DNA of 64,000 nt from Watersipora subatra (lineage: Eukaryota; Bryozoa; Gymnolaemata; Cheilostomatida; Watersiporidae): the NCBI RefSeq assembly GCF_963576615.1, contig NC_088709.1, positions 23,018,243 through 23,082,242 of the forward strand, read 5' to 3'. This document shows positions 51,001-54,000 of the stretch, piece by piece. The position numbers and the translations under genes are program-made. Position 1 is the first letter of the stretch. Every line of letters starts with the position of its first letter. The notes under the pieces were generated by a model. That model was given only the letters and a program-made list of their open reading frames with translations. It was not told the DNA's origin and ran no database searches.

Positions 51001-54000
51001 CTCATTGACTAAACGTACAAACCAGAAAGCCACTACAGGCAGTCAACCGGCAATACAACCATCACCCAGCAACCAGAGGATAGTGAGTACTATATACCAA
51101 CAGAAAGCACTAGAAGCAACTGTTGTACTGCTGGTACTCAGAGAAAGTGGACAAGCAGAAAAGCTATTTTGGTAATTGGAGAGCACAGGAAAGGTGCAGG
51201 CAGACACGAGCCCAGACCAGCACATGTGTGTTAGAAGTTTCTTCTCTCCAGCGGTTAGACACATGGCATCGCTGATGCTGCCACGAATTACCTATTCAAG
51301 GCGTTCAGCATCTCAACCGTGACGAGGACAGACAGAGCCAGGCCGTGTGGTATGTCACTGTCGAAGACAGCGCAGTCAATACCCGCGAAATTTGCCGGCT
51401 GAGCTAAGCATTGAGAGTGATGAGTCTGTATAAAAGAAGATATCCTTCACAATAGTTGCTTGCCAATATCACAATGAGATGAGTTGCCGCCAGCCAACCT
51501 CTGCCATCTAGCCAGTTCACTGGTTAAACTGACGCGAGTGACGCAGCAGAGGCTGATGACAAGGTGGCGCCGTGGCAACGCATCAACAATCCTAAACAGT
51601 TACCTGTTAAGTGCATTTAGCATCTCAATGACGACGAGGACAGACAAGGCCATTGTCATAGGATAGGGTGACTGAAAAACGTCACAATCTACTCCTTTAA
51701 AATTCTCAGGTTCTCCTAAGCATTGCATATGATGGGTCTGCAAACAATTCAGTTTTCAGTTAGCAGACAGTACGAAGCAGAGCATGACACAACAGTGGAA
51801 CTATGGATGGGTGAGAGCATTTGTTTTGATATGCTCGTGTCTGGTCTATAATAGTGAATTTACCACGTCAACTTGGGCACCGAGCAGCATCCGATACTTG
51901 GTACTGGTTCTAAAGATTCTTTATGCAGTGTGATACTTTTACAATTGTCATAATCTAAGCTTATTTACATTCAAACTCAATATTGCTTCAAAAATTGCTC
52001 TCCATCATTCCAGCATGCTTCGAGCTGTAGAATATTTGAAATCAGTACGCGAGCCGAAATATCACGCCTTATATACTTAAAATAATCCAACGCAGTGTTT
52101 GTCGACAAACCTAACAAACCTCTGAGATTGAGTTGAGACAAGCTTACCAGCTGATAGTAGTTGAGGTGAGGTCCATCGGCAGCTGTCATGAACCACCAGG
52201 CAGCAGCGCCAACGGTTGCCGCACCAACATAAACTGCAAGCAGAGCATCAATGTGCTGTACCGCATAGACAAAAAGGACTAGCAATTCTCTGCAGGTGTA
52301 AAAGTTGTAATAGTGAAAAGGACGATCAGCCAGCCCATTTTATTTCCATATGATGAACTGAAAAAGATTATGTAGTACACTAAATACTTCAGGTGCAAGA
52401 AATACCTCACCTCCAATAGCCATGTATCTAAAGAACAACCAGCCAGTGATGAGGCCTTCTTTAGGGTCCCTTGGCTGTTTGTCCATAATATCGAGATCTG
52501 GGGGGTTGAAGCTTAGGGCTGTAGCGGGAAGTCCATCTGTTACTAGATTCACCCACAGAAGCTGTACGGGAATCAGTGCCTCAGGCATGCCAAGTGCCGC
52601 CGTCAAGAAGATGCTGCCGATAGCAAAATGATCAAAGGTAAGCGCAGATAAATTACACCAAAAATCAACTAGACAAGCTCTCTGAAGCTAAAAGTAGTCA
52701 CAATTCAGCCAAAGGTCAGCACCTAAGACTGAAGACTTACAGAGTTATGTAAGAATAAAACACTAAAGAGCCCCCCCCCCCCTTCCCGCCCCACTCACCT
52801 AACAACCTCTCCAATGTTCGATGAAATGAGATATCTGATGAACTGCTTCATGTTGTTATAAATGGCACGGCCTTCCTCTACGGCTGCCACTATGGAAGAG
52901 AAATTGTCATCAGCGAGCACCATCTCGGAAGCTGATTTGGCTACGGCAGTACCGGAACCCATAGCAATGCCTATCTCTGCTTTCTTGAGGGCTGGGGCAT
53001 CATTTACACCATCTCCTGTCTAAAAAAAGTGAGTAAGTAGAGAATGTTTGCGTACTAGTAGCCAGTCACATTTGGTACGAACAATTATAACTCGTTTGCG
53101 CCAGAACATAGAGACAAGGCAGAAGTTATAAAATAGTAAACAGAAGATAATTTTTATGCCACGTTAGTAAAGTTTGTTGCTTATTGTCCAAGATTAGGCC
53201 ATCGAAACATTGACATAAAACGATAACACTTTATATGTATTATGCTTAGCATACGACCTACTAAACATATTGAGAAGAGGACAGAGAGAGTAGTAGCAAA
53301 CAGGTTAGAATGTAATGTACCATGGCTGAGATCTCGCCCATGCTCTGCAGATGCTCGACGATCTTGCTCTTATGGGAAGGTTCGACTCTAGCGAAGAGCC
53401 TCGCTCTCATCACCGCTTCTACCTGCTCTTTCTCTGACAAATCGTCAAACTCTCTGCCAGTGTACGCGAGGCCTTCCGTTGATTCCATTTCATCAAACAC
53501 TCCGATTCGCCTGCAGATGGCCTCAGCTGTAGCCTATAGCAGCAACAAAACATCAAGACACCTCCCAACTGTGGAAATGCGCAATGCCTATTGTCCTGTT
53601 GATGAAATAATGAGTCAATAGATCATTGCTAGCTTCTTACCAATAAACTTTGCAAAAAGTAAAGTAAAGTCAAAACCTTGCTACACATCACTCACCTTGT
53701 TGTCACCAGTTATCACGATAACTCTGATGCCTGCTTTGCTGCACTGCTTTATGGCATCCATTACTTCAGTTCTTGGTGGATCCAACATTCCAACAACACC
53801 AACAAATGTCATGTTCGTCTATAACAGACAGATTTGTATTTAGGTAAAACACAACTTTCGAACTATATCGGATTGCTATAGCTGTAAACCAGCGAAACAA
53901 CATTATACACCATAGATGGATATACGCGGTGTATATATACAAGAAACATTTGAGAGACGTATTTAATTTGAAAGTCTAAAAAATATAAAATAGGCTATAA

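Follow-up and report, generated by a model that had tools for sequence, protein, structure and literature searches.

In almost all animal cells, the filling of calcium stores is set by SERCA. The closest described systems to the one reported here are the C-terminal variants of this pump (vertebrate SERCA1a/b, 2a/b, and 3a-f, and those of Artemia, C. elegans, and Pinctada), in which, as here, one gene gives products with a spliced membrane or luminal part. According to the available portions of two reports, invertebrate SERCAs are mostly encoded by single genes that are spliced at the C-terminus, and the known variants differ in the tail (PMC3527596, PMC6987452). The exon pair of the bryozoan Watersipora described here swaps an internal element instead, namely loop 7/8 and TM8. 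Within the titles and abstract openings of the open-licence papers among the matches listed, alternative exons for SERCA loop 7/8 were not found; C-terminal SERCA splicing is already known from this literature, whereas an internal swappable loop exon is not described there. The first-pass annotation likewise noted that the pair is not known from well-studied SERCA genes, which agrees with the C-terminal variation described in these sources.

Old alternative exons are known from other gene families. NALCN has an old pair of alternative exons for its pore (exon 15 or 31), which occurs in animals ranging from flatworms to non-chordate deuterostomes. As far as the accessible text goes, it resembles the present case in that a single-copy gene for an ion transporter exchanges one functional element through the pair (PMC3557258). 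What the NALCN exons exchange is the ion selectivity filter; in the SERCA pair, the ion ligand stays and the luminal loop differs. Similarly, clustered mutually exclusive exons tune a muscle protein in the metazoan muscle myosin heavy chain, in the part of the report available (PMC3912159). Myosin differs from SERCA in being a motor protein of another gene family.

On the minus strand of the window, i.e., the whole stretch of 64,000 nucleotides of Watersipora DNA that was analysed, most of a SERCA gene is present, from position 62713 downward. The features discussed below are collected in Table 1.

Table 1. Positions of the SERCA gene part, its alternative exons, and associated elements in the window
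Feature	Position	Strand	Remarks
SERCA gene, in-window part to the long-tail stop	49389..62713	-	first (5') exons lie past 64000
Exon upstream of the B/A pair	52148..52233	-	86 nt
Exon B (5' copy)	51604..51737	-	134 nt; L7/8 loop and most of TM8, 44 residues
Intron separating B from A	51426..51603	-	178 nt
Exon A (3' copy)	51292..51425	-	134 nt; same segment as B, 44 residues
RNA arm 1, inside exon A	51399..51414	-	16 nt, perfect reverse complement of 50364-50379
Intron downstream of A	49952..51291	-	1340 nt
RNA arm 2, in the downstream intron	50364..50379	-	complementary to 16 nt of exon A and 10 nt of exon B
Exon downstream of the B/A pair	49834..49951	-	118 nt
Exon with long C-terminal tail	49389..49586	-	26 residues, stop
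Alternative last exon	47994..48037	-	14-residue tail and stop; ordinary C-terminal SERCA splicing

Two adjacent exons of equal length and phase with good splice sites had been proposed for this locus, and both were found at the positions given for them on the minus strand. Each starts at a codon boundary and ends two bases into a codon (phase 0 in, 2 out), and both have GT-AG borders: TTTGCAG/ACC and AACAG/GTAACT for exon B, TTATACAG/ACT and AATAG/GTAATT for exon A. The proposed identity of 29 of 44 residues was reproduced, and 79 of the 134 nucleotides are the same. B or A follows exon 14 of the in-window gene part. With the exon boundaries assigned here, the gene part stays open to the stop with B alone or with A alone (865 codons including the stop), whereas computed splicing with both exons or with neither led to a stop soon after the junction, in line with the frame shift that the first-pass annotation had predicted. 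The frame is lost in the latter two cases because the exons are 134 nt long, and this length means that only single-exon transcripts encode a pump.

The segment corresponds to residues 871-914 of SERCA1 and 870-913 of SERCA2, counted on alignments to the PDB sequences. We take it to comprise the luminal TM7-TM8 loop, which contains C876 and C888, and TM8, with E908 as the TM8 calcium ligand. The cysteine pair and the glutamate of TM8, which had been claimed for both exons, are indeed present in A and in B, and exon A additionally has N911. SERCA2 and SERCA1 were the closest solved structures (PDB sequences), and the exon A segment matched SERCA2 with E=8.2e-25. P-type ATPase domains were found (Pfam) in the annotated Watersipora SERCA isoform X3 (P0003). 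This isoform uses exon B, a usage read from P0003 alone, which represents a cluster of 8 sequences. P0003 equals the B model of the window letter for letter over 838 residues and then continues with a different C-terminal tail. The swap is internal: the segment ends at residue 918 of the 1011 in P0003, 93 before the end.

When the exon B peptide was searched against the 784-Mb genome (E<=10), the two matches were B and A themselves (E=1.4e-24 and 8.1e-13), and no third copy of the exon was found. Synonymous sites between A and B were saturated (pS 0.906), with pN at 0.277. As judged from the two exon sequences, the synonymous saturation shows great age, and with the protein conserved, the pair is constrained.

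Exon A of the bryozoan is unusual in several respects. It evolved unusually fast, with an end branch of 1.19 on the exon tree. It carries H-G-L at 897-899, where M899 is invariant in the other exons compared (29/29 A, 34/34 B), and P at 880, where other type-A exons carry D or E. At position 906, the window has T in A and V in B, the reverse of the commonest state (V in 21/29 A, T in 21/34 B).

Counterparts of the two exons were sought in other animals. Type A was defined by two residues, S or A at 874 and Q at 879 (SERCA1 numbering). Three protein searches with A-type queries gave 252 proteins, namely the best 120 each of 1803, 298, and 229 matches. The database groups sequences at 90% identity, so that isoforms are hidden. 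All of these proteins except the sturgeon model P0001 supplied the exon segment, i.e., 251. Type A was present in 42 of the 251 listed matches, the first residue alone in 1, the second alone in 11, and neither in 197; the share of 42/251 is not a frequency, as A-type queries and best-120 lists favour A-type proteins. Among the matches listed, all 31 type-A proteins with an organism name came from molluscs, flatworms, or a nemertean. Four of the other 11 fall among annelids on the tree built from the rest of the protein (body tree). Furthermore, in 10 of these 11, the protein would take up 56-98% of the longest contig in its cluster (2.6-5.3 kb), as expected of spliced RNA.

The window's exons follow this division, with S874 and Q879 in A and M874 and E879 in B, and the same holds for the five other species pairs compared. 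Four positions outside the type-A definition also separate the types, most clearly position 880, with D or E in 29/29 unique type-A exons versus 9/144 of the unique exons that lack both residues; this count omits the mixed exons and one unusually spaced type-A exon. One protein of each type was found in Octopus bimaculoides, Littorina saxatilis, Mytilus coruscus, Mya arenaria, and Macrostomum lignano. Outside the exon, the A and B proteins of the first three species were identical over the part compared, many such entries being gene predictions. The Macrostomum proteins differ outside the exon too and may be paralogues. A search for the same duplication in related genomes had been suggested; our protein searches retrieved three gene models with B then A in tandem, like the window, from Macrostomum (P0004), Batillaria (P0005), and Echinococcus (P0006), the first one being truncated in the TM8 part.

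Some proteins departed from these two types. Nine of the 11 with Q879 alone are of the clitellate kind MQCLVQDE. These mixed exons (M874 with LVQDE; P0139, P0150, P0157, P0163, P0173, P0195, P0197, P0203, and P0204), among them those of Helobdella and Lumbricus, look as if one exon had been lost or both had recombined. The single protein of the 251 listed with the first A residue alone (P0016) has S874 with E879-P880. Flukes appear to have a second SERCA type without the full A signature (P0161, P0168, P0175, P0187, P0188, P0191, P0193, and P0196); two divergent SERCA genes are described for Schistosoma mansoni in the accessible part of one report (PMC3527596). In the protein search, the sturgeon models P0001 and P0002 outscored the bryozoan's own protein. 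Neither was counted as a case of paired exons: in P0001, an entry flagged as unverified contamination, the entire C-terminal part is repeated, and P0002 has a single copy in the part inspected.

For the trees, names and types guided the choice of 69 rows (28 A, 25 B, 3 of the clitellate kind, and 13 others), among them the two exons of the window. In the best exon tree, the type-A exons, window A among them, lie on one side of a branch, so that the labels need 1 change versus a mean of 22.0 for shuffled labels. On the 44 columns, support for group A was 62/79, one change sufficed in 61% of the bootstrap trees, and the bootstrap was unsettled. In the body tree (a quick tree of 68 rows), the same labels need 22 changes versus a shuffled mean of 21.4, and the A and B proteins of Octopus, Littorina, Mytilus, Mya, and Macrostomum cluster species by species. 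Such disagreement between the two trees fits two exons long shared by one gene, not separate genes. Separate paralogous genes were rejected as the source of A and B, as the exon search found no third copy in the genome and the A and B proteins group by species on the body tree. The idea of alternative exons for loop 7/8 and TM8, put forward at first from the window alone, gains strong backing from the spiralian protein pairs, the tandem models, and the contrast of the two trees, all of which are comparisons of sequence.

The explanation that we favour, and that as an overall account we consider quite likely to be right, is a single SERCA gene with tandem-duplicated alternative exons, likely mutually exclusive, which arose early in spiralians and whose swap would retune luminal feedback. 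The pair would have been inherited from an early spiralian ancestor. By the choice of B or A the luminal loop would be exchanged while C876, C888, and E908 stay, and this choice would alter the feedback that the pump receives from luminal Ca2+, or from a luminal partner that senses it; type B keeps an acidic residue at the position of SERCA2a D878, where type A has Gln. Taken by itself, the stated effect of the choice on pump regulation is put forward tentatively, at a little under an even chance. We infer that the two exons exclude each other at the RNA level in Watersipora and that the bryozoan pair shares its descent with the other spiralian A/B pairs. The choice between A and B looks very old, because matching pairs occur in molluscs and flatworms.

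Common descent has to be weighed against an independent duplication in the bryozoan lineage, whose copies became similar to the A/B pair of other spiralians secondarily. The 44 columns leave some room for this: sisterhood of window A and B was not rejected (p-AU 0.312), and the same was seen for the Octopus (0.142) and Macrostomum (0.154) pairs, whereas it was rejected for the Littorina pair (p-AU 0.0098). The long branch of exon A (1.19) and its P880, as in B, would suit a separate origin as well. However, the B-then-A order is that of all three tandem models, the residues at 874 and 879 match those of the five other species pairs, the best exon tree places window A with the A group, and the synonymous saturation shows great age. 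Overall, we regard independent duplication as improbable. Another rival view is that exon A is a decaying or poison copy, whose inclusion beside B would shift the frame and lower pump output and which would give no useful A protein. Both exons together do give an early stop, A is the faster copy in Watersipora, and the annotated X3 uses B; nevertheless, with A alone the frame is open throughout and encodes both cysteines, E908, and N911, and pN is far below pS. Moreover, type A occurs alone in full-length proteins of other spiralians, including short RNA-type contigs and a Tridacna entry. On balance, a poison copy is very improbable. That the pair is an assembly artefact, with two haplotypes placed in tandem, found no supporting point and can practically be dismissed, given the 41% nucleotide divergence between the exons, the 178-nt intron between the copies, and the same arrangement in the gene models of other species.

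With respect to function, the first-pass annotation had proposed that the exons differ in loop charge and that luminal calcium or redox control might be switched by splicing. In the window, a charge difference is seen between the cysteines (A with 1 acidic residue and net charge -1, B with 3 and -2), but it has no fixed direction: in the five other species pairs, the number of acidic residues between the cysteines in A equals that in B or exceeds it by one. As the net charge between the cysteines rises, falls, or stays equal across species, a charge-reversal model was discarded. Redox on/off switching, likewise, did not hold as the main reading, as both cysteines are retained in both exons and in types A and B generally; a quantitative redox difference could still exist. 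With no fixed charge direction and the cysteines kept, altered luminal feedback is what we propose, rather than a general change in charge or redox state.

Control of luminal calcium by the A/B choice is plausible as judged from the residues involved, because charged residues of the loop mediate the regulation of human SERCA2a by luminal Ca2+ and the loop disulfide is needed, as stated in the accessible text of one report (PMC11826342). There, the replacements E877L/D878L/E883L resulted in less transport, especially at intermediate luminal Ca2+, and breaking the loop disulfide abolished transport, with expression also lower; the three residues were mutated jointly, and the effect is not attributed to D878 singly (PMC11826342). 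For SERCA2b, oxidised loop cysteines are reported to reduce activity in the available part of another study (PMC8148124), and its luminal tail comes near the TM7-TM8 loop, according to the portion of a review at hand (PMC10058886). SERCA2a D878 corresponds to SERCA1 position 879. In the chosen rows, this position is E in 24/24 type-B and Q in 27/27 type-A exons, Q879 being part of the type-A definition, and the exons of the window are likewise E in B and Q in A. In the 144 unique exons with neither A residue, non-spiralians included, E is found in 68, D in 33, G in 30, and others in 13.

If the favoured explanation is true, SERCA has a second isoform axis, independent of the tails, in molluscs, flatworms, nemerteans, bryozoans, and probably annelids. 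Among these animals are parasitic flatworms and shell-builders, and studies of their pumps deal with a single protein. The pair would also be a natural experiment on luminal Ca2+ feedback, as one of the three SERCA2a positions that were mutated jointly in 2025, according to the text available (PMC11826342), is E in the spiralian B exons compared and Q, partly by definition, in the A exons.

A candidate for the control of the choice was found in the intron downstream of exon A, where a 16-nt element is perfectly complementary to a site inside the exon (Table 1). In the 784-Mb genome, exact matches of the 16-mer were confined to the two arms, and no match to exon A exceeded 13 nt in 150 dinucleotide shuffles of the downstream intron. 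When a stretch of 1161 nt was folded in isolation, the stem was predicted with pair probabilities of 0.91-1.00, and among 18 exons compared, A pairs best and B second-best with the intronic element. The complementarity ends sharply at 16 nt, so the element is not a long inverted copy. In Dscam-type clusters, exons are chosen by pairing between docking-site and selector RNA. The likeness lies in a single intronic element that is complementary to both alternatives; unlike in those clusters, the partner in SERCA lies inside an exon, there are only two exons, and the arrangement is known from one species.

Such pairing would select the exon in Watersipora if the stem of the intronic element with exon A hid A and favoured B. 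It would be a mechanism beneath the A/B splice switch and not an alternative to it. The perfect complementarity above the shuffle maximum, the confinement of the 16-mer to the two arms, and the predicted stem, with A and then B pairing best, all speak for it. On the other hand, the arms came from a scan and are somewhat post hoc, comparable perfect inverted repeats (>=16 nt, within 2.2 kb) occur in at least three other places of the window, the 10-nt match of B follows from its homology with A, and the pairing is known from the Watersipora sequence alone, i.e., from one species. Overall, we consider selection by RNA pairing less likely than not. Less likely still is the full combination of an early-spiralian splice switch, different store set points in different cells, and control by exon A/intron pairing in the bryozoan, all of which would have to hold jointly. 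With its 178 nt, the intron between B and A probably leaves the splicing machinery enough room, so that simple steric exclusion is unlikely to be the mechanism. Splice-factor motifs (TGCATG, TGCT, YGCY, and others) were counted once; TGCT was above the mononucleotide shuffle in the upstream (7 vs 1.5) and downstream (14 vs 7.1) introns, and nothing was drawn from this.

Like the known SERCA variants, the Watersipora gene also has two C-terminal tails. Ordinary C-terminal splicing was seen on the minus strand (49469 and 47994-48037), with read-through to a short hydrophobic tail or a separate last exon. Ostrea entries combine the A loop with three different tails. The idea that the A loop always goes with one tail was therefore rejected, and the choices of loop and tail seem, from these entries, to combine freely.

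Between two SERCA exons, a stretch of 48 nt (57115-57162, minus strand) has AG/GT borders and is open in frame (16 residues). It is absent from P0003 and is possibly a cassette exon, or due to chance. The window also contains many long minisatellite arrays (17 repeat-finder rows, some overlapping), e.g., 3870-4248, 7693-8324, 27594-28349, 29476-30014, 33374-33993, 41814-42392, 57316-57580, and 60331-60567. Two arrays lie inside SERCA introns, and some coincide with long open frames.
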